Both the position numbers and the translations under genes were made by a program. 64,000 bases of DNA from Candidatus Melainabacteria bacterium (GTDB taxonomy: Bacteria; Cyanobacteriota; Vampirovibrionia; 2-02-FULL-35-15), in assembly GCA_023250195.1 (NCBI GenBank), contig JAHFBF010000004.1, forward strand, positions 69,675-133,674, read 5' to 3'. Every line of letters begins with the position of its first letter. Position 1 is the first letter of the stretch. This document shows, piece after piece, positions 4,188 to 35,898 of this stretch. Under the pieces are notes generated by a model that searched no databases, had not been told where the DNA came from, and saw only the letters and a list, made by a program, of their open reading frames with translations.

Positions 4188-6452
4188 TTAAGCTACTAGT
4201 AAGCTTTCCTTTAAATCTTCATTCCCGGCCCTTGCAAGACTTCTATATAACTCTGATGGACAATTGCCACCATTAAACATAGATTCTTCGCTTGTTCTTT
4301 GTTCTCTTAATTTATCCTCTGCAGCTTTAATATAAGCATTTGCTATTTTATCCGGATAAAGTTCTTTCCCTGGAAGAAGCCCTTTTAAAAACATTGGTCT
4401 TTTTTCATAAACCATATTATCAACAAATTGCTGCAGAGCCATTATTTTATGGGCATAAGGATTTTTATCTTCTGCTTTTAGTTCTTTTTCTTTTTGCCTT
4501 AAATCTCTTAGTTTTAACATAACAGCAGAAGTTTGATACAAATCTATTACTTCATCAGCAAAAGCAATTAACTCTTTTTGCTTTAACATTGTTTTTTTAC
4601 CTGTTACCATGTCAGTAAGTCCCATGGTTTTAATTCTCATAGAAAGTGATTTTGTTTTATTTTGAAGCCAAATCATAGAAGGATAACTTAGCCCACCACT
4701 TTCATACTTAAACATAGTTGATTCACGCTTAAGGTGTGTCCATGGATTAGCTCCTCCTTTTAATAAAGGTTTTACACCTACCCCCACCATGTGTTGCTTT
4801 AGAGCTTCATTTACACCTTCAACAATAATTGGAACCCACATATCCCGTTTCATAAGTTCAATAGGACACCCTTTCATTAAGCTTTGTCCGCCAAACATTC
4901 TTGCTGCTATCTTTGTAACATCTTCTGCTTCTTCCGTAGCAAGTGCTTTTATAGCCGCACATTCAGCAATAATATTCATCTTTGGATATGTATCAATTAG
5001 CTTTGATGTAAGTTCTACCGAAGCATCAAGAGCTTCAGTTCTTACTGCCATTTCAGAAATATAGCTTTTTACCTGAGGTAAATCAGCAAGTCTTCCACCA
5101 TGTTCATCAAATCTTTGTCTTTGAATAGCTTCTAAAACAGCCATATTAAATGCTTCTTTTGCAGCCTCAGCACAGAATGCACCAAAGCCTGCACGGCCTG
5201 CATTTAAGCTGTTAAATATAACTTTTGTTCCTTCACCTATATCACCAAGAGTATTTTTTATACCTCGCTCATTTACAGCTGAAATTTCAACATCATGAAA
5301 CTCAATGTATGCTTGATTACTTCCTCGTATACCACTAAGTTCAAGAGGCTTGGAAATATAAAGTCCTTCTTTCTTTAATTCCTGACGTTTTCTTTCAGTC
5401 TCTTCTTCCGTATCTGTAAGCCTAAATGGTAATTCTTTTATAAATACTGTAGGTTTTAATTCTGGTCCTTCATCATCTATCTTTGCAAATATAAGCATGA
5501 CAGATGATTTGTGGGTATTAGTTATAAAAATTTTGGAGTTAGCCGATGTGGGGCTATTTAAGATATATTTGTCACCAACTTTTTTTGCAATTACTCCGGA
5601 ATTATTTATAGCATCAGTACCTGAACCTCTTTCTGTAAGTGCAAATGAAACAAGCCCTTCACCTTTTGCTATCTTGGGTAAATAATATCTTTTTTGATCA
5701 AAATCACCATAGTATTCAAATGGTTTTGATCCTAATGTACTATGTGCGCTGACTATTCCTGCAATGGTTCCAGAGTAAGTGTGAATAAGTGTTCTTAAAA
5801 TAGCATCATATTCACGCTGATTAAATCCCATTCCTCCAAATTGTTTTGGGATCTTTAATCGATTCAATCCAAGATCCACCAACCTTTGGTATAACTCAGG
5901 TCTAACATACATTTCTTCATCAATCTGAAAAGGATTTACCAGCGCTTTTTCCAGATTACTAAAGTCGATATTTAATTCATCCATCCATGCTTTAACCTCG
6001 CTGTCTGGATTTTGAAGCCTTGTTGTTGCAGCTGATTCAGCTGCCGCCCATCCTGCTAAGTTATATTCATATTCTCTTGCTAAGTTTGGGGGAATATCAT
6101 CTGGAGTCGATCCCAGACCTTTCAGCCAGCTTGGAATGACTGTACTGCTTTGCCTCATTCCACCCGTAACAAGGGCATTATAGGCATTTATTTCTGCTTG
6201 TCTCTTAGGGCTTAAATTATTATCGTAGGCAGCAGCAAGAGTATTAAGTCTTAGTACTCCACCTGAAATAGCGTCTGAAATAGGCCCATTGTCTCCATGA
6301 CCAAGCATGCCACCACTTTTTGCCATTAATTTTTTTACAAGATCACCTTGATCTTGTGGGCCTTTTAAGGTAGCTCCCCCTAGGTAAGTAGGCAGATAAA
6401 GTTGTCCTGGGAGATAGGGTCTAAAATTTTGATCTATTTGAGTAACTGACAA
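4188..6452 (-). CDS. fadE: Acyl-CoA dehydrogenase (large, FadE-like), copy 1
   Basis: 754 residues, much longer than the roughly 380-residue classical enzymes. An N-terminal extension of about 180 residues contains PGQLYLPTYLGG and KSGGMLGHGDNG. The FAD-dependent core follows, with ALTERGSGTDAINNSG, LSGIRGSNQAYIEF and AGRAGFGAFCAEAAKEAF. The segment IVEGVNEALKQHM probably holds the catalytic glutamate, and a helical tail of about 180 residues follows. It should make trans-2-enoyl-CoA from acyl-CoA as the first step of beta-oxidation. The start is a TTG at 6452 preceded by AAGGAGA. A paralogue lies immediately upstream; the two are alike along their whole length. Confidence 0.9.
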   Translation of the reverse strand: MSVTQIDQNFRPYLPGQLYLPTYLGGATLKGPQDQGDLVKKLMAKSGGMLGHGDNGPISDAISGGVLRLNTLAAAYDNNLSPKRQAEINAYNALVTGGMRQSSTVIPSWLKGLGSTPDDIPPNLAREYEYNLAGWAAAESAATTRLQNPDSEVKAWMDELNIDFSNLEKALVNPFQIDEEMYVRPELYQRLVDLGLNRLKIPKQFGGMGFNQREYDAILRTLIHTYSGTIAGIVSAHSTLGSKPFEYYGDFDQKRYYLPKIAKGEGLVSFALTERGSGTDAINNSGVIAKKVGDKYILNSPTSANSKIFITNTHKSSVMLIFAKIDDEGPELKPTVFIKELPFRLTDTEEETERKRQELKKEGLYISKPLELSGIRGSNQAYIEFHDVEISAVNERGIKNTLGDIGEGTKVIFNSLNAGRAGFGAFCAEAAKEAFNMAVLEAIQRQRFDEHGGRLADLPQVKSYISEMAVRTEALDASVELTSKLIDTYPKMNIIAECAAIKALATEEAEDVTKIAARMFGGQSLMKGCPIELMKRDMWVPIIVEGVNEALKQHMVGVGVKPLLKGGANPWTHLKRESTMFKYESGGLSYPSMIWLQNKTKSLSMRIKTMGLTDMVTGKKTMLKQKELIAFADEVIDLYQTSAVMLKLRDLRQKEKELKAEDKNPYAHKIMALQQFVDNMVYEKRPMFLKGLLPGKELYPDKIANAYIKAAEDKLREQRTSEESMFNGGNCPSELYRSLARAGNEDLKESLLVA

Positions 6453-6602: not shown

Positions 6603-8777
6603 TTAACTCACTGGAGCGGCAATCTGAGTAAATTGTTTAAACATCTTGGATGGATTACCATTGCCATCTTTAAACCATTTATTTTCAATGTCTCTTTGTA
6701 TGCTTAATTCTGCCTCAGCTTCCTTAATATAAGCATTAGCAATGTGTTCAGGATAAAATTCTTTTTTTCCAAATTTAATCAGGCTGTCTTTATATTTCAT
6801 ATTATCAATGAATTGTCTTAAAGCAAGTCTTCTGTGTTCTGAAATATTTTTATCTTTAAGTTTTAAAAGTACTGCAGCAGCCTGGTAAATCTCAATTGCT
6901 TTATCTGCAAATGAAAGTAATTCTTTTTGTCTAATCATTGTTTTTGGTCCGTTCAATGCTCCTAATGCCAGTACCATTGCAGAATAGCTTTTTGTTTTTC
7001 TTTGTATCCACCACATATCACCAAAACTTAAACCACCACTTTCATAGATTAGTCTTGAGAGCATAAGTTTTACAAGAGCAACAGGATTTGTAGAAGCTTT
7101 TAAAGCCAGCTTTGCTCCAACTCCTACCATATGTTGTTTAAGAGCTTCATTAACACCTTCTACAATTAATGGAACCCACATATCACGCATGATAAGCTCG
7201 ATTGGATAACCTTTCATCAGACTCTGCCCACCAAAAATTCTTGCTGCAATAGTAGAAATTGTCCAGGCTTCTTCTGTAGAAATAGCTTTCACTGCACCAC
7301 ATTCAGCAATAATATTCATATGAGGATAAGTGTCAATTAATTTTGTTGTAAGTTCTACTACAGCATCAAGCGCCTCTGTTTTAATTGCCATTTCTGAAAT
7401 ATATTTTTTAACCTGAGGCATATCAGCTAACCTGCCGCCAAACTCATCAAATCTTTTTCTTTGAATAGACTCAAGCACAGCCATATGAAATGCTGTCTTG
7501 GAAGCCTCTGCACAAAAGGATCCAAAGCCTGCACGCCCTGCATTAAGGCTGTTAAATATAACCTTTGTTCCTTCACCTACGCCACCTAAAATATTACTTA
7601 CACCATGATCATTTACAGCAGGGATCTCAAGATTATGAAATTCCATATAAGCCTGATTACTGCCTCTAATACCACTAAGCTTTAATGGCTTTGAAATATA
7701 TAATCCTTCTTTTTTAAGTGCCTTTCTTTTTCTATCAAGTTCTTCCATAGAATCAGTTAATCTAAATGGTAACTCCTTAAGAAATACTGTAGGGCTTAAT
7801 TCTTTACCATCATCAATCTTTGCAAATATAAGCATTACGCTGGCTCTGTGTAAATTTGTTATATAAACTTTGGAGCCATTTACAATATATTTTTTACCAT
7901 CCGGTGAAGGTTTAGCAATAGTAGCTGCGTTGCTAATGGCATCTGTTCCAGAACCTCTTTCTGTAAGTGCAAACGAAACAAGTCCTTCACCTCTTGAAAC
8001 TTTAGACATGTAATATTTCTTTTGTTCAAGGTCGCCGTAATATTCAAAAGGCTTTGAACCAAGTGTGCTATGTGCACTTACCATTCCTGAAAGTGTTCCG
8101 GAATAAGTATGAATAAGAGAACGAATCACTCTGTCATATTGTCTTTGATTAAAACCAAGCCCACCAAATTCTTTTGGAACCTTCAACCTGCAGAGTCCAA
8201 GATCTCTCATTCGCTCAAGAAGTTCTGGTTTGACATAAATCTCCTCATCGATTTCAAAAGGATTAACAAGAGCTTCTTTTAAATTTTCAAACTTAAGGTT
8301 TAGATTATTCATCCATTCTTTAACGTTAGAGTTTGGATTCTGGAGCTTTGAAAGAACAAGATTATTACTTGCTGTCCATCGGGCTAAATTATATTCATAT
8401 TCTTTTTTTAAATCTTTTGCAATATCATCAGATGAAGAACCATATCCTTCAAGCCAACTTTTAACAATATTTTCTTTTAATCTTAGTGAATAATTAACAA
8501 GCTCTATATATGCACTTATTCTTTTTTCTTCTTCGGAATCTAATTTATTTTCACTGGCTTTTTGTAACCAATTTAATCTTAAAACTCCTCCGGATGTTGC
8601 CTCTTGAATAATCCCGTTTTGTCCGGTGCCAAGCATGCCACCGCTTTTTTTCATTAGCTTTTTTACAATGGCATCCTGGTTTTCACTATTGGACGAATCA
8701 GCAATACCGCCTAAATAATCAGGCAAATAAAGTTGTCCGGGAGCATAAAAATTTAATTCTGGATCAAGGTCTGCCAT
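6603..8777 (-). CDS. fadE: Acyl-CoA dehydrogenase (large, FadE-like), copy 2
   Basis: 724 residues, a paralogue of the next gene downstream. It shares PGQLYLPDYLGG near the N-terminus, KKSGGMLGTGQNG, ALTERGSGTDAISN, LSGIRGSNQAYMEF, AGRAGFGSFCAEAS and IVEGVNEALKQHMVGVG. It lacks about 30 residues of the copy-1 C-terminal region. Such pairs usually arise by tandem duplication and may divide acyl chain lengths; that division is inference. The ATG at 8777 has AAAGGGAA about 12 bases upstream. A gap of 150 bases without a gene separates it from copy 1, so they may be co-transcribed or have separate promoters. It heads the beta-oxidation block. Confidence 0.9.
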   Translation of the reverse strand: MADLDPELNFYAPGQLYLPDYLGGIADSSNSENQDAIVKKLMKKSGGMLGTGQNGIIQEATSGGVLRLNWLQKASENKLDSEEEKRISAYIELVNYSLRLKENIVKSWLEGYGSSSDDIAKDLKKEYEYNLARWTASNNLVLSKLQNPNSNVKEWMNNLNLKFENLKEALVNPFEIDEEIYVKPELLERMRDLGLCRLKVPKEFGGLGFNQRQYDRVIRSLIHTYSGTLSGMVSAHSTLGSKPFEYYGDLEQKKYYMSKVSRGEGLVSFALTERGSGTDAISNAATIAKPSPDGKKYIVNGSKVYITNLHRASVMLIFAKIDDGKELSPTVFLKELPFRLTDSMEELDRKRKALKKEGLYISKPLKLSGIRGSNQAYMEFHNLEIPAVNDHGVSNILGGVGEGTKVIFNSLNAGRAGFGSFCAEASKTAFHMAVLESIQRKRFDEFGGRLADMPQVKKYISEMAIKTEALDAVVELTTKLIDTYPHMNIIAECGAVKAISTEEAWTISTIAARIFGGQSLMKGYPIELIMRDMWVPLIVEGVNEALKQHMVGVGAKLALKASTNPVALVKLMLSRLIYESGGLSFGDMWWIQRKTKSYSAMVLALGALNGPKTMIRQKELLSFADKAIEIYQAAAVLLKLKDKNISEHRRLALRQFIDNMKYKDSLIKFGKKEFYPEHIANAYIKEAEAELSIQRDIENKWFKDGNGNPSKMFKQFTQIAAPVS

Positions 8778-13286: not shown

Positions 13287-14945
13287 TTATGGGAATAACG
13301 AATCTGAATCTTCTTTTTTAATTTCTTTTAGTACTACTTCAAATTCTCTATCTCCACTTCCGATTCTTCCATCAGTTGTAAATGTTCTTTTTCCACCAAC
13401 CTTCATTCCTTCTACAACTTTTCCAAGGAACGGTAAATCAGGATCTTTTCTACCACCTATTGTAACGGTAGAATCTCCTTCTTTACCTGTTGTTATGTTT
13501 CTCCAGTGAACTACTACTGTTTCCCCTGATTCTGCTTCAGGACCTCTTTTTGGAATGAATGTATCCTTAATTGTATCGCTGCGTACATCTTCATCCAGAC
13601 TTAATTCAAATTCAGAACTTGATGATTCATCTAAAGGTGGCGAGTCAAAGTCGTCAAGGTCATCAAGAATGCTTTCTTCTTCAGCAGCAGGTTTTACTTC
13701 CACTTCAAATTCTCTATCTCCAGCTCCAACTCCATCAGTTTTAAATGTTCTTTTTCCACCGACATTCATCCCTTTTACAGCGTCTCCAAGAAATGGTAAA
13801 TTTTCATCTTGGTTACCATCTATTGTAATAGTAGAATTCCCGTCGATACCAGTTTCTAAGTTTTTCCAGTGAACTACTACTGTTTGACCTGATTTTATTT
13901 CAGGACCGCTTCCTTCAACCACATCCCTAATTGTTCCACTGAGCACTGCTTCATCTAGTTCAAAAGGACTTCTTGTTGGCAACTTAGCTTCTACAGGGCT
14001 TGCTGCATCTTCTTCCAGAGGAGGGAAGTCAAATTCTGAACCTGAGACTGATGCAGGCTCTAAAGGATCTATACCTAAGTCTAAGTCACTACTTGAACCT
14101 CCTTCTCCAAGAGCGTCATCTTCTTCCTCAACTACACTAGGTCTTCTTGCGGGGGAAGGCACACTACGATCCTCACGTATTGATCTTAAACCAGAAAGAT
14201 CAGTAGGAGCTGCACCGGCCTCTTCTAAAATTCTTATGAGCGCTCTAAGAGAATCTTTAGTACCAGATTTGATCTCTGATAAATCCTGAAATCCCTCTAA
14301 TATTCCTTCCAGAATATCTCGCTCACAACCCATAAGAAGTGCAATTCTAAAAGCCTTATTTGCTTCATGTGCGGCTTCCGCACTGCCATCTGCTCCATAA
14401 GCATTTTTTACTATGGCACATGCTGCCCTTCTTTTTATATCAGGCTCAGAATCAGGATCCTTTATAAACTCAGCTAGATCTTTTACTAATTCAGTTCCAG
14501 TTTTACCACTGATAAGGACTTGATCAAGTGATGAATCACCGGAACCCCAATTCCATGGTAACCAGCTTGACCAACCTCTTGTAGCTGCTGGGGGTGGAAT
14601 TGCTGGAGTCGGAGCTAGTGTGGGCGGAACTGCTGTGGGTGGAATTGGAACTGCTGTGGGTGGAATTGGAACTGCTGTGGGTGCTGCTACAGTTGTACTA
14701 CCGCCTTCCGATGGCGGCATAAAGGCAGCTCCAGCAAGAATGGTACCAAATATTCCAACCCCGGCAAGTGCCCATCTAAGATTAATATATGGAAATATTT
14801 GAGTTGTAGATCCAATCCCTTTATAAGCTCCTCCAAATCCCAATAAAGCACATACCAGGCCGACTGCAATACTACCGACATTGGCGCCGGCCCTTTGACC
14901 TAAAGATTGTGGATTAGCAGTTACGCCTGGTAACGTTGTTGACAC
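13287..14945 (-). CDS. Membrane-anchored protein with two FKBP-like domains
   Basis: 552 residues. Two hydrophobic segments (about 24-40 and 58-76) are followed by a Pro/Ala/Val stretch of VPIPPTA units (about 87-120), a Trp-rich patch (WSSWLPWNWGS), a helical region, an acidic linker, and two copies of an FKBP-type fold near residues 330-425 and 450-545. The two copies share VVVHWKN or VVVHWRN, PFLG, a GMxVGGKRTF block and GDREFEV. Classical FKBPs use this architecture for peptidyl-prolyl isomerisation; several aromatic active-site residues are not evident, so activity is uncertain. Both copies are also alike at DNA level, which indicates internal duplication. The whole protein is not recognised beyond these domains. 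It may be an envelope folding factor. Confidence 0.7.
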   Translation of the reverse strand: MSTTLPGVTANPQSLGQRAGANVGSIAVGLVCALLGFGGAYKGIGSTTQIFPYINLRWALAGVGIFGTILAGAAFMPPSEGGSTTVAAPTAVPIPPTAVPIPPTAVPPTLAPTPAIPPPAATRGWSSWLPWNWGSGDSSLDQVLISGKTGTELVKDLAEFIKDPDSEPDIKRRAACAIVKNAYGADGSAEAAHEANKAFRIALLMGCERDILEGILEGFQDLSEIKSGTKDSLRALIRILEEAGAAPTDLSGLRSIREDRSVPSPARRPSVVEEEDDALGEGGSSSDLDLGIDPLEPASVSGSEFDFPPLEEDAASPVEAKLPTRSPFELDEAVLSGTIRDVVEGSGPEIKSGQTVVVHWKNLETGIDGNSTITIDGNQDENLPFLGDAVKGMNVGGKRTFKTDGVGAGDREFEVEVKPAAEEESILDDLDDFDSPPLDESSSSEFELSLDEDVRSDTIKDTFIPKRGPEAESGETVVVHWRNITTGKEGDSTVTIGGRKDPDLPFLGKVVEGMKVGGKRTFTTDGRIGSGDREFEVVLKEIKKEDSDSLFP

Positions 14946-31919: not shown

Positions 31920-32134
31920 TTGCTACCAACATTTGTGGAAACTGGTGGAACAATTGAAAGTTTCTGGAACTGTACTTGTGTAGAATCTCACCAGCAGCAA
32001 AATCAATACAAACTATATGTGGAAATAATTCCTGTGATGCTGGTGATGAGTGTGATGGTTCAGATCTATGCAATGGAATAGAACATTCCTGCCAAACATT
32101 TTATCATCCGGATTGCACTTGTGTGCGAGAGTAA
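31920..32134 (+). pseudogene. Remnant of a Cys-rich secreted protein gene, frameshifted
   Basis: Two reading frames each carry part of a cysteine-rich repeat protein. The first part ends ESFWNCTCVE. The other frame, from about 32012, reads ICGNNSCDAGDECDGSDLCN and then GIEHSCQTFYHPDCTCVRE before the stop at 32132-32134. CGNxxCDxGDECDG units are typical of Cys-rich repeats in secreted proteins of Myxococcota and other bacteria. The repeated CTCV(E/R) ending shows that both parts belong to one gene, separated by a frameshift near 31985-32010. No good start codon remains. It belongs to the cluster of secreted proteins downstream. Confidence 0.6.
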
Positions 32135-32137
32135 AAA

Positions 32138-32215
32138 GCTGCCTAGTAAAAGTAGTAAGAACCAAAATAGCACAGTTTCAAGGGCAGGTTTATATTCATA
32201 AATAACTATCATACT
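32138..32215 (+). repeat. Triplicated noncoding repeat, copy 1
   Basis: AGCTGCCTAGTAAAAGTAG, then AAGAACCAAAATAGCACAG, TTTCAAGGGCAGGTTTATAT and AACTATCAT. It directly follows the stop codon of the Cys-rich remnant. Related copies are at 33267-33327 and 34230-34310; each stands at the 3-prime edge of a secreted-protein gene. Confidence 0.65.
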
Positions 32216-32279
32216 CTTATAGGTGCTTATTTATATTAGAATAGATGTTGGTTTTTTTTGTATTTATAAGGAGAAAATA

Positions 32280-33272
32280 ATGAAAAGTTTTAAATCAATT
32301 AAAGTAATAGCACTATGTTTTATATTTCTATTTATATTAATAGGTGTATTTAGCAAAAACAATGCAGCCACTTTTATAGTAACTGATAACAATCCATTTT
32401 TCCCAAATGATCAAACCGTTACTGGTCCTGGATTTTTCCCTTTTAGCAACAGTCAGGGAGTTATTACTTTATTTAATCAACAATGCCCGAATCCTGAATT
32501 TACATTTGATGGACCAGATTCACTTTTTGGCTCTACACTAGAAATCGGTCCTGCAGCAAATAGTGCTGAAACTGGAAGCAGAGATATTTTAGTTTTTGAT
32601 ATGAATGGAAATGTTTCGCTTGACTTCTTAAATGCTTTTCCACTGGCTGATCCTAATACTATGACTGCTTTTGATCCTTCTATGGGAGATATATTAGGAC
32701 TTTCATTAGTCCCAGGTCCGGGATTCCCTATGAGTGGTACATTTATGATAACGACAAGCTTTAACTGTGATGATGGAATGTCTACGACTTCATCTACTTC
32801 CAGTACTAGTTCATCTTCTGGCTCAACCTCTTCTTCAGGGGGTTCAAGCTCAGGAGGCACATCTTTGACTCCTGTACAAAGTATTGGTGCTGCTATCGGT
32901 GATGAACGTTTTGCTAAAGGCTCAATTGATTTAAAAAAACTTCTCAATCCTGCAGGTGCAGTATCTCCATTTTCAGTTAAAGCAACAATTGAAAACTTAA
33001 ATGGTTCAGTCAATGAATTAATGTCTTTGCAAACTAAATTTGCAGATAACAATATCATGATAGGAATGAGTACCATTCAGGATACATTAAATGAAGTCAT
33101 AAACAATGACAATGAAGCTATTATGATACTGGAACCGTTTAAAAATACTGATCCATCAATAACTAACGGTGAGTTTACTACTGCTATTACTAAAGCTAAA
33201 AAACTAATTACTGAAGCAATGCGAGCTAAAGAACTTATAAAAACAAAACTTGGAAAACTGGAGAAGAAGTAA
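32280..33272 (+). CDS. Secreted protein with Ser/Thr/Gly-rich linker
   Basis: 330 residues from the ATG at 32280, chosen because AAGGAG stands 8 bases upstream; a longer frame from 32223 lacks a site. Signal peptide MKSFKSIKVIALCFIFLFIL. The N-terminal mature domain is beta-rich with three cysteines, ending FNCDDGMS. A Ser/Thr/Gly linker follows (about residues 170-200, runs of TSS and GGSS), then a helical C-terminal domain with conserved-looking DLKKLLNPAGAVSPFSVKA. The layout (beta domain, Ser-rich linker, helical domain) matches the product of the gene ending at 34319. It is not recognised. Surface or extracellular location is likely. Confidence 0.65.
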   Translation: MKSFKSIKVIALCFIFLFILIGVFSKNNAATFIVTDNNPFFPNDQTVTGPGFFPFSNSQGVITLFNQQCPNPEFTFDGPDSLFGSTLEIGPAANSAETGSRDILVFDMNGNVSLDFLNAFPLADPNTMTAFDPSMGDILGLSLVPGPGFPMSGTFMITTSFNCDDGMSTTSSTSSTSSSSGSTSSSGGSSSGGTSLTPVQSIGAAIGDERFAKGSIDLKKLLNPAGAVSPFSVKATIENLNGSVNELMSLQTKFADNNIMIGMSTIQDTLNEVINNDNEAIMILEPFKNTDPSITNGEFTTAITKAKKLITEAMRAKELIKTKLGKLEKK

Positions 33273-33327
33273 GAACTAAAATAGCACAGTTTCAAGGACA
33301 GATTTATATACCGAAATTAGCTATGGA
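33267..33327 (+). repeat. Triplicated noncoding repeat, copy 2
   Basis: AAGTAAGAACTAAAATAGCA, CAGTTTCAAGGACAGATTTA, TATACCGAAATTAGCTATGG. It includes the stop codon of the Ser-rich secreted protein at its left edge. The last half is nearly identical to copy 3. Confidence 0.65.
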
Positions 33328-33480
33328 CGGATGATTTCTATACTTTTTTATTTAAAAGTTATTTTAAATAAAGTATTTTACAATGACTTTTAGATAAATT
33401 TTTCTGTATTACAAAATTCGATTAACTCCTTTAGTTGTTAAACTTTAACCGGGTTAAAAAATATTTTGAGGTATTATAAA

Positions 33481-34128
33481 ATGAAAAAAATAATAAGTCT
33501 GGTTTTAATTTTTGTATTTTTGGTTTCTTTCACTACTAATGGTGTAACTGCTCATGGTATGGGGGGATCTAATAATTCAAGCGGATCGCCATCGGATGCT
33601 GATCCAGAATCTCTTCAAACTCTTCAAGAAGTTGAAACAGCTTTAGCTGACGCCAAAACAAAATTAGCTGAGGCAGGATTTTCATTAAAACTTTTACAAC
33701 AAATTAAAAGATTAGAAGCAAGGCTTATGGATATAGCAATAGATGGTGAAGGTGCTAAACCAACCAAATGTGCTTCAATAGTTGATCAGTCTATACTCAA
33801 GACAGATAAATCTATTCAAGAAATCACAAATAATATTTGTCCTGCTACACAAAGATTAGCTTACAGAGGAATGTGTAATCCATTCTTGTCAAACTTCTCA
33901 GAATGTGAAGCGAAGGAACATGGACATAGTGGGGGACATGACAATGGCGGACATATGGGAATGATGGGTGGCGATAATTCTGGAGAAACTAATATGGCAA
34001 AACCCTGCCTTACTACAGAACAAGCACAGGCTGCAATCTCAGATCTTCAAAGAGTACGCGACAGTTTAGCAAAGATTCAAGGACTAGATGCAAACGCTGA
34101 TAGTGTACCTGATTTGTGTGTAAAATAA
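33481..34128 (+). CDS. Secreted helical protein with His/Gly/Met-rich loop
   Basis: 215 residues from ATG at 33481 with GAGG 8-12 bases upstream (a TTG at 33466 would overlap the ribosome site). Signal peptide KKIISLVLIFVFLVSFTTNG. The middle is helical with heptad-like Leu. Around residues 140-170 a run HGHSGGHDNGGHMGMMGG could bind metal ions such as copper or nickel. The C-terminus reads LDANADSVPDLCVK, alike to LDNNKNGIADVCE at the end of the neighbouring secreted protein; these look like short calcium-binding DxNxDxxxDxC motifs. Six cysteines probably form disulfides. No family is recognised. Confidence 0.65.
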   Translation: MKKIISLVLIFVFLVSFTTNGVTAHGMGGSNNSSGSPSDADPESLQTLQEVETALADAKTKLAEAGFSLKLLQQIKRLEARLMDIAIDGEGAKPTKCASIVDQSILKTDKSIQEITNNICPATQRLAYRGMCNPFLSNFSECEAKEHGHSGGHDNGGHMGMMGGDNSGETNMAKPCLTTEQAQAAISDLQRVRDSLAKIQGLDANADSVPDLCVK

Positions 34129-34160
34129 TTAAATAATTTAGATAAAAAGTTTATTTACAG

Positions 34161-34200
34161 CAAAGATTTTCTGTATATGAAAATCTGATTGTCGTAAAGC
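34161..34200 (+). repeat. Two-hairpin leader element, copy 3 (first hairpin only)
   Basis: Hairpin 1 with arms AGATTTTC (34164-34171) and GAAAATCT (34179-34186), followed by the constant segment TGATTGTCGTAAAGC. It resembles hairpin 1 of the nadK leader (loop TATAT, GTCGTAAAG after the stem). No second hairpin is evident and no gene starts after it on this strand. Confidence 0.55.
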
Positions 34201-34229
34201 TTAGTTGGTAAAAGTAGAACACTATATAA

Positions 34230-34310
34230 AAAAGCTGTCTGGTCAAAGACGTTAGAACTAGAATTAAAGGGGGTCAAGAAAGTATTTATATACCAAAATT
34301 AGCTATGGTT
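34230..34310 (+). repeat. Triplicated noncoding repeat, copy 3
   Basis: AAAGCTGTCTGGTCAAAGAC, GTTAGAACTAGAATTAAAGG, GGGTCAAGAAAGTATTTATA, TACCAAAATTAGCTATGG. It lies between two converging secreted-protein genes. The first half resembles copy 1 and the second half copy 2. Confidence 0.6.
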
Positions 34311-34318
34311 GATTAATT

Positions 34319-35788
34319 CTACTCACAAACATCAGCAATTCCATTTTTATTATTATCGAGTTTAATAAGGCCATCAACTAAATCTGCATCTTCAAGGAAA
34401 TTATCTATTTTTTCTTTTTCCTTACATGATTCCAGTTGAGTTTCAGTTTGATTGACGCACAAGCTATTGTTGATATTAATTGCAGCATCACGCATATTGC
34501 TTACTCCTTTTAAGCGTAAACTACAAAGGCTATCAGGTAATCTTAGCGAAGATCTTATTACTTTAAGTGACTTTGAAAGTTTATCAAATAACATTTCTGT
34601 AATATTTTGTTTTCCAAAAACTTCTCTAGCTTCTTTACGTATCGTTCTAGAAACATTGTCTATAGCATTAAGAATATTTTTGAGATCAGGTGCAATGGAG
34701 ATAGGTTCTTCTCCACTGAATTGTGAATATTGTTCACAGATGTCAATGATTCCATTACCTGATTCATCGATAGTACTCTTAGATTGGATTATAAGGTTAT
34801 CATCATCTAAAGCTAATAAAGCAACAATGCAAGAAGAACCACATTGAGCACTTCTTAAAGCATTAATTGCCTCAGAAAGTTTTTCAACCTGTTTTGCAAG
34901 CTTATTATTACAGTCTGAAGCTGATAAATTAAGAAGCACATACTTTACTAATCTGACTGCACCTTGAAGATTTTTAACTTGCGATTCAGCACTAACAAAT
35001 GTCTTTGTGGTTGAAATTGACGATATGCTGTTAAGTACATCTTGAAAACTAGTAACTAGAGCAGGTTTACTTGAAGGTGCTCCACTGGTTGAAGAGCTTG
35101 AAGAAGAAGTACTACTACAAGAAGCGGTTATGAACTTGTTCAAAGTAGTTATAGAAGAATCACCGTTTAAAGTTGCCTCTAAGTCAGCAGAGTTACCATC
35201 TAAGTTAATAGTTACGTGAGGTCCCTTTCCTTTTTCAGGGAATACTTGGATAAATTCACCAGAATTATTTATTTTTCCAAATGCGTGGACAACTTTACCG
35301 TCAGATGTAGCAAATTTTAATATAGCTCCTCCATCTGATCCAATATTTAAAAAATCACCAGGTAAAAAATCACCTGCAATATCAGCATTGTAAAAACCAC
35401 TAAATGAAGGTGAACCACCTTCAACAGTAATTAGTTTTGCTTTTCCATTTACCGTGCCGTCTGCACTTTTTATTAAAATATTATTGTCTGTTGTTAGAGA
35501 TAAAGTATAAGCGGTAGATGCTGTTAAATCACCTAAATTAAAACTGGATCCAGTTGGTCCATGTGTTTTTTGATCTTCCGGGGCAAAAAAACCTGCTATA
35601 TGTTGGTTTGCAACTACTATAAAAAGAGGCTTGCTAACTTTTTTACCATCAGAACCAGTTATTATGGACGTACCTATATAAGTTCCATCAAATAAAAAAC
35701 ATATAGCATTACTGTTTTCAATATTGAAAACAAAAGAACTAAAAATAAGAATTAGACTCAATAAAATATTTTTTATATTTATTTTCAT
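34319..35788 (-). CDS. Secreted protein with Ser-rich linker and DxxxNGIxDxCE motifs
   Basis: 489 residues. Signal peptide MKINIKNILLSLILIFSSFV. The N-terminal 210 residues are beta-rich (DGTYIGTSIITGSDGKKVSK, FSGFYNADIAGDFLPG) and end in a Ser/Thr linker (TASCSSTSSSSSSTSGAPSS). The C-terminal part is helical with regularly spaced cysteines and two motifs, DESGNGIIDICEQ and LDNNKNGIADVCE, that look like thrombospondin type 3 or dockerin-like calcium loops. TATAAT stands 15 bases before the ATG, giving a leader of about 8 bases. It shares its layout with the Ser-rich protein at 32280. Function unknown; an extracellular role such as adhesion is plausible. Confidence 0.65.
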   Translation of the reverse strand: MKINIKNILLSLILIFSSFVFNIENSNAICFLFDGTYIGTSIITGSDGKKVSKPLFIVVANQHIAGFFAPEDQKTHGPTGSSFNLGDLTASTAYTLSLTTDNNILIKSADGTVNGKAKLITVEGGSPSFSGFYNADIAGDFLPGDFLNIGSDGGAILKFATSDGKVVHAFGKINNSGEFIQVFPEKGKGPHVTINLDGNSADLEATLNGDSSITTLNKFITASCSSTSSSSSSTSGAPSSKPALVTSFQDVLNSISSISTTKTFVSAESQVKNLQGAVRLVKYVLLNLSASDCNNKLAKQVEKLSEAINALRSAQCGSSCIVALLALDDDNLIIQSKSTIDESGNGIIDICEQYSQFSGEEPISIAPDLKNILNAIDNVSRTIRKEAREVFGKQNITEMLFDKLSKSLKVIRSSLRLPDSLCSLRLKGVSNMRDAAININNSLCVNQTETQLESCKEKEKIDNFLEDADLVDGLIKLDNNKNGIADVCE

Positions 35789-35827: not shown

Positions 35828-35898
35828 AGCGGGTAGAGGGAATCGAACCCTCGACTAAAGCTTGGAAGGCTTTCGTTTTACCATTAAACTACACCCGC
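35828..35898 (-). tRNA. tRNA-Gly (anticodon UCC)
   Basis: On the minus strand a 71-base tRNA folds completely. The acceptor stem is GCGGGTG with TACCCGC (one G-T pair). A D arm follows with AATGGTAAAAC. The anticodon stem AAAGC/GCTTT encloses the loop CTTCCAA with anticodon TCC. The T arm is AGGG-TTCGATT-CCCT. The discriminator base is T and CCA is not encoded. Confidence 0.95.

Follow-up and report, generated by a model that had tools for sequence, protein, structure and literature searches.

Repeat Tails in tRNA-Anchored Gene Arrays of a Melainabacteria Family as Probable Severed 3' Ends of a Large Serine Recombinase Gene

Introduction

What is a repeat of 60-80 bases that stands three times among neighbouring genes for secreted-looking proteins, and how did it come to be there? 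The question is posed by a locus of a Candidatus Melainabacteria bacterium (GTDB lineage Bacteria; Cyanobacteriota; Vampirovibrionia; 2-02-FULL-35-15), within a 64,000-nucleotide stretch of DNA (assembly GCA_023250195.1, contig JAHFBF010000004.1, positions 69,675 to 133,674) that is called the window throughout and whose genome is designated G000. Between a DUF1501 gene on one side and a transfer RNA (tRNA) gene, tRNA-Gly, with fabG on the other, the locus holds three such genes, a broken fourth and the three repeat copies (Table 1). The initial annotation took the repeat to be noncoding, and to reflect either cassette duplication or a recombination handle for the exchange of surface genes. 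Judged from sequence comparison, it is instead the terminal ~20-26 codons of a gene for a large serine recombinase. We consider it highly probable that these copies, here called tails, are 3' ends that were severed from a tRNA-targeting serine recombinase gene when mobile units integrated.

The Repeat as a Coding Tail

The triplication is real and far from a chance origin: with the middle copy as query against the whole 2.2-Mb genome, the other two were recovered at E = 9.9e-13 and 9.1e-7. The members of this 63-nucleotide family lie at 32150, 33264 and 34246, the outer two being 76% identical to the middle one. The first two stand at 3' gene edges, as annotated, and the third adjoins the 3' end of a gene on the minus strand (cargo 3). 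One frame of the repeat yields a conserved peptide, RTKIAQFQGQIYIPKLAMDG, followed by a stop codon. The description of the repeat as noncoding does not hold, because all three copies read the same frame of the recombinase C-terminus; copies 2 and 3 stop at the same codon and copy 1 at an earlier one. Tails 1 and 3 are decaying, the former stopping early and the latter carrying several amino-acid changes.

A peptide-profile search found copies in all 11 examined genomes of this Melainabacteria family, many of them in one-direction rows, and a class-wide profile search of 240 genomes gave matches at E <= 1e-5 in the same 11 only and in none of the other 229 (G004 and G007 had one match each). 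For codon statistics 59 copies were extracted, of which one was dropped and 58 used. The stop codon falls at the same position in 48 of the 58, as TGA in 24, TAA in 20 and TAG in 4, and single-base codon differences between nearest neighbours were synonymous in 164 cases and not in 124 (57% synonymous vs. 27% expected). Collection by peptide profile biases the copies towards a coding signature; the stop position lies outside the profile. When a DNA profile built from the copies was run over both strands of the same loci, all 64 hits faced in the array direction.

Other origins were tried and rejected. For the tail as a C-terminal extension of the upstream gene, the frame offsets were 15, 10 and 8 for frames 0, 2 and 1 (n = 33). 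A phage or plasmid origin found no match in phage or plasmid collections, and in IMG/VR 19 stretches fitted the peptide pattern without a relative among them, two DNA patterns giving no hits at all. In the stretches compared with Rfam, the repeat matched no family.

The Serine Recombinase and Its Junctions With tRNA Genes

The source of the tail was recognised in genome G002, where a 604-residue open reading frame (ORF) beside tRNA-Pro ends antisense inside the tRNA gene (LENICTKLSDRRDLNPGPLPPQGSALPS, then a stop codon), while on another contig of that genome a relative of its 3' end runs on as LENVCIKLSGLRYKVRTKLMEYKGHIYIPDLAPAV to its stop. By its domains, the protein from which the tails derive is a large serine recombinase: Pfam Resolvase, Recombinase and Zn_ribbon_recom were found in each of the four long recombinases scanned (best E 4.4e-21), a 145-residue C-terminal fragment in G009 giving no Pfam match. 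Relatives occur in 9 of the 11 genomes (19 matches, distributed over 18 places; G004 and G010 have none), and at 14 of the 18 places the recombinase ORF ends in an antisense tRNA gene (Pro 4, Ser 2, His 2, Asn 2, and Trp, Arg, Asp and Gly 1 each). A fifteenth, in G000 itself, ends antisense in a tRNA-Asn gene with a group I intron (L175 4953-5234, contig G000:C2).

Paired junctions locate the break. At tRNA-Pro the two members of the pair agree in 51 of 60 bases left of the core end and 17 of 60 right of it; the corresponding figures are 57/60 and 11/60 for tRNA-Ser, and 36/60 (23 of the nearest 24) and 10/60 for tRNA-Gly. On the tail side, the recombinase frame continues into the tail in all three. 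The same recombinase 3' end is thus joined to a tRNA gene in one place and runs in frame into a tail in another, which places a putative attP inside the recombinase gene. For tRNA-Trp, CGCGCCCT is common to the tRNA 3' end and the two tail flanks; the same look at the His, Arg and Ser islands found no shared word of note. A whole island can be followed in G007, from a recombinase at tRNA-His through a gene that reads as primase-like and other genes to a single tail 13 kb off.

A 371-residue tyrosine recombinase was considered as the driver and rejected: it stands beside tRNA genes at 12 of 16 loci, and no tail was found in those stretches. These genes form a second tRNA-targeting island family (L133-L148), with tyrosine recombinases of about 370-383 residues and one ORF of 328; 12 of the 16 point away from a tRNA gene (Pro, Asp, Val, Ala, Arg or Thr) and begin 31-81 bases from it, and the two that were scanned have an HTH_17-like N-terminus below cut-off.

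Tail Arrays at tRNA Genes

At the 16 loci with both tails and a tRNA gene, some of which were taken because a recombinase is present there, the tRNA gene is on the opposite strand in every case and all tails lie on its 3' side in 15, the exception being L072, where one tail lies beyond the tRNA gene. Cargo at the tRNA 3' end, a feature of tRNA genomic islands, is thus found at these 15. The tRNA genes that face tails are tRNA-Gly, -Pro and -Arg in the first set and tRNA-His and -Trp in others. Contig C5 of G000 ends, and C7 begins, with 120 identical overlapping bases; the tRNA-Pro array of G000 is therefore likely to span both contigs.

Gain and loss can be followed at the tRNA-Gly locus of the window, which the initial annotation had proposed comparing among strains. 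Tails are present there in 7 of the 11 genomes (G000 3, G002 1, G003 4, G005 1, G008 1, G009 4 plus a weak fifth, G010 2), and the cargo largely differs among them. Of the others, G007 has no tail within 12 kb of this tRNA gene, the contig ends 0.6 kb (G001) or 1.2 kb (G004) from it, and the G006 piece excludes it. No fabG was found in G009, whose locus was recognised by the tRNA gene and its flank; there a recombinase fragment reads into the tRNA gene, with the four tails and weak fifth on its 3' side. The outcome that the initial annotation had named against its own proposal, a randomly placed repeat in an invariant locus, is not what was found.

Tails mostly stand in same-direction rows at intervals of mostly 0.7-2 kb that hold one or two genes. 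Ten cargo proteins scanned included HicA/HicB, RelB/ParE, DUF4160/DUF2442, DUF2283, a GNAT acetyltransferase and a DUF4143 ATPase, the HicA, RelB and DUF2283 assignments being below the curated cut-off; secreted-looking proteins also occur among the units. One secreted-looking gene of G009 (982 residues) contains a 530-base direct repeat that is 100% identical (L071 7716-8245 and 8358-8887). The same cassette is found in other genera with other neighbours, its block ends falling at repeats, and the start of a cassette body can be up to 199/200 identical between genera, compared with 79.5% DNA identity for the fabG region of that genome pair. In five left-end comparisons other than that of the DUF2283 cassette, tail and body had diverged about equally in four (HicAB twice and two ATPases).

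Palindromic inserts of several sequences occupy one fixed point, the tail start (L062, L065, L067, L069, L071, L074 and L077, and the tRNA-Gly flank of L127), and a similar palindrome is found in G001 at the 3' end of tRNA-Gly. Fragments resembling tRNA 3' ends (e.g., GGCGGGATTTGAAC) lie roughly 45-105 bases before the core at cassette right ends, preceding tails L067:1816, L067:4520, L064:1851, L062:2587 and L068:2369, and are perhaps the displaced tRNA ends of older insertions.

Proposed Mechanism

We propose that a mobile unit of this family carries a large serine recombinase gene in which attP lies about 26 codons upstream of the stop, and that attB is a tRNA gene's 3' end. Recombination across a short core common to both sites, putatively a unidirectional attP x attB reaction that this recombinase itself would carry out, would leave the recombinase body next to the tRNA gene, reading antisense into it and so acquiring a new C-terminus, while the severed 3' codons would remain at the distal end as a tail, or scar, of ~60 bp. 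Repeated insertion at one tRNA gene, each unit contributing one tail, would then build an array of the order tail - cargo - tail - cargo - ... - tRNA, and in the window three scars would have been left at tRNA-Gly with no recombinase gene remaining. Units without a recombinase would have moved in trans or lost the gene. The origin of the tails by severing on integration is very likely in our judgement. A wider scheme is more doubtful, although possible: bacterial serine integrases that sever themselves, in lineages at different tRNA genes, would build integron-like arrays and drive units made of core and tail only, with the swap of the C-terminus, should it have a role at all, acting as a one-way lock.

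Several observations weigh against this mechanism. No recombinase gene was found complete and still continuous with its tail; of three unsplit sites, that for Pro lies at a contig edge and those for Gly and Ser are degraded, the Gly site retaining about 24 bases of recombinase with the usual stop codon absent and the Ser site matching the recombinase C-terminus in 19 of the last ~34 residues before the core. The window has no recombinase match (the only one in G000 at E <= 1e-5 is on contig C2), 3 of the 18 recombinase loci showed no tRNA gene, and neither did 12 further tail stretches; for 6 of these 12, the contig itself or the adjoining one holds a tRNA gene at another place. The shared core is short and the word test is weak outside tRNA-Pro and -Trp: when tail flanks were compared blind with tRNA 3' ends, the linked tRNA was the unique best in 7/28 (Pro), 2/2 (Trp), 0/15 (Gly) and 0/3 (Arg). 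An empty site was sought for the G007 island, and the gene outside it is present in 1 of the 11 genomes, G007 itself. Tails face in opposite directions tens of kilobases apart on one contig in two cases (G006:C24 and G008:C20).

The behaviour of some units also fits poorly. The DUF2283 cassette of G003 and G000 is 199/200 identical at the start of its body and 33/42 in its tail, so tail and body moved separately there, and a further left-end comparison, one of five, also shows a tail less conserved than the body (76% vs. 88% identity). Among 21 pairs with similar right ends, 16 had different bodies by the criterion of the script; in at least one of these 16 (G000_L064_349/G003_L062_6298), both members are one cassette, truncated at a contig end. 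The palindromic inserts at the tail start also belong here, with matches to GAGCCTCG lying 20-31 bases from that point in 9 of 9. Random deletion hardly explains recombinase-less units with a gene ending right at the core; such units suggest movement in trans, or exchange by homologous recombination.

Alternative Explanations

An integron without integrase (cluster of attC sites lacking integron-integrases, CALIN), with the repeats as attC sites and the units as gene cassettes, would also suit rows of small units that share one direction, include many toxin-antitoxin genes and differ in order among genera, as well as palindromic inserts at a constant position in the repeat. We hold this to be very unlikely, since the repeat is coding and continuous with serine recombinase genes, its single strand folds no better than shuffled sequences (z +0.35 to -1.40 for 8 strands from 4 insert-free copies), and the integron-integrase model TIGR02249 scored over its cut-off in none of the 11 genomes, all of which gave tyrosine recombinases below it. 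Insertion near genes of a palindromic element, similar to a miniature inverted-repeat transposable element (MITE), with homologous recombination between repeats shaping the arrays, would accommodate the block ends of shared cassettes at repeats and the DUF2283 cassette that travelled without its tail. The uniform direction of 64 of 64 copies, the polarity with respect to the tRNA gene and the recombinase junctions would be unexpected for a MITE, and this origin too is improbable; homologous recombination may still contribute to the shuffling of units.

The least probable alternative, to which we give hardly any credence, is a fragment of a transfer-messenger RNA (tmRNA) tag or a stand-alone small protein, as the short frame, the lack of a conserved start and the small hydrophobic end (LAPAA, LAMAA) might suggest. 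The match to the genome's tmRNA has a different frame (ending ANYRKVVAIGDHRAQKQAA and a stop, read by eye, ARAGORN not having called it), and the tail frame runs on from recombinase genes.

Genes of the Window Locus

The features between the broken gene and the tRNA gene are collected in Table 1.

Table 1. Features of the tRNA-Gly locus in the window; scar and attachment gene are the roles proposed in the text.
Feature	Position	Strand	Remarks
Degraded Cys-rich secreted-protein remnant	31920..32136	+	Readable end ICGNNSCDAGDECDGSDLCNGIEHSCQTFYHPDCTCVRE, then stop; upstream frames broken, read by eye
Scar 1	32134..32205	+	att-proximal stretch and recombinase 3' end VVRTKIAQFQGQVYIHK, then stop; final codons lost
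Cargo 1, secreted Ser-rich protein	32280..33272	+	Open reading frame
Scar 2	33264..33334	+	Recombinase 3' end EVRTKIAQFQGQIYIPKLAMDG, then stop; fused to 3' end of cargo 1
Cargo 2, secreted protein ending DANADSVPDLCVK	33481..34128	+	Open reading frame
Scar 3	34229..34316	+	AAAAAAGCTGTCTGG... and recombinase 3' end KDVRTRIKGGQESIYIPKLAMVD, then stop
Cargo 3, 489-residue secreted protein, DxxxxGxxDxC twice	34319..35788	-	Open reading frame
tRNA-Gly(TCC), attachment gene	35828..35898	-	3' end towards scars

Four secreted units, one of them degraded, had been annotated here, with Ser/Thr linkers and DxxxxGxxDxC motifs. Three stand as open frames, all with an N-terminus that looks hydrophobic by eye, and the fourth as a broken Cys-rich remnant. 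Ser-rich linkers are present in cargo 1 and cargo 3. The motif is exact in cargo 3 alone (DESGNGIIDIC and DNNKNGIADVC); cargo 2 has a near form (DANADSVPDLC) and none was seen by eye in cargo 1. Pfam gave nothing at or above the curated cut-off for the three proteins (best E 0.037), and they are not evidently paralogues on the two of three pairs compared (cargo 1 vs. 3, best E 0.032; cargo 2 vs. 3, best E 0.37).

Homologues occur in other genomes. Cargo 1 has one at the tRNA-Gly locus of G009 (83% DNA identity over 1117 bases) and, by eye, another at that of G008; at the joint with scar 2, cargo 1 is two codons shorter than the G009 homologue, which has no tail behind it. A homologue of cargo 2 is found on G002:C49 (70% DNA identity over 785 bases), and that of cargo 3 in G002 (79% identical) adjoins the same tRNA and is likewise flanked by a scar. 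The one named relative of cargo 3 is in a Candidatus Melainabacteria metagenome-assembled genome. Of the initially suggested roles for the repeat, what survives is that the repeats bound units that are gained and lost; they do not belong to a duplicated surface-protein cassette. The repeat does occur beside other secreted genes, as had been asked, but cargo elsewhere is largely other than surface proteins. Elsewhere in the window, two further pairs of related stretches were observed (4771-6340 and 7111-8668, 71% identity; 13326-13598 and 13692-13958, 76% identity).

Comparison With Known Systems

Chromosomal integrons and CALINs are ordered same-direction arrays of small cargo, with many toxin-antitoxin genes, and the arrays described here resemble them in these respects; they differ in the tRNA anchor and the coding repeat. 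Membership of the integron class fails because IntI and attC folding were both tested, and no IntI over cut-off and no folded attC were seen. Tycheposons, which are tyrosine-recombinase elements, are likewise tRNA-associated cargo islands, whereas the enzyme here is of the serine type.

The target of the Sulfolobus spindle-shaped virus SSV1 is a tRNA gene. Suicidal integrases of the SSV type are, in the passages drawn on from a review, tyrosine recombinases exclusive to archaea, with an attachment site inside the integrase gene, which is split on integration and whose fragments stay in the chromosome (PMC8371274). A site inside the gene (three junction pairs) and tRNA integration (15 of 18 loci) are found here as well. 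The SSV-type cut, as those passages describe it, parts an N-terminal piece from the catalytic part (PMC8371274), whereas here the last ~26 codons are lost and the catalytic domain is kept; the serine recombinase domains mean that the bacterial enzyme is not a member of the SSV type, although its way of working appears alike. Among the listed titles and abstract beginnings no serine or bacterial counterpart of a suicidal integrase was seen, which does not establish its absence from print. The tRNA-borne genomic islands treated by Islander, as far as the portion of that paper used here goes, also have tRNA targets and endpoints marked by displaced fragments, with tyrosine integrases and a target restored from island sequence (PMC4383910); in this family the recombinase is of the serine type and the lasting scar would be its own 3' end.

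Concluding Remarks

If the proposed mechanism is true, the tails are a readable record, each of which would mark one insertion at a tRNA gene, in a bacterial family of which, to our knowledge, no member has been cultured. A bacterial serine version at eight kinds of tRNA would suggest that the self-splitting arrangement arose twice. The family would also offer a natural test of the way in which the C-terminus of serine integrases governs direction, and a source of recombinases with distinct short targets.

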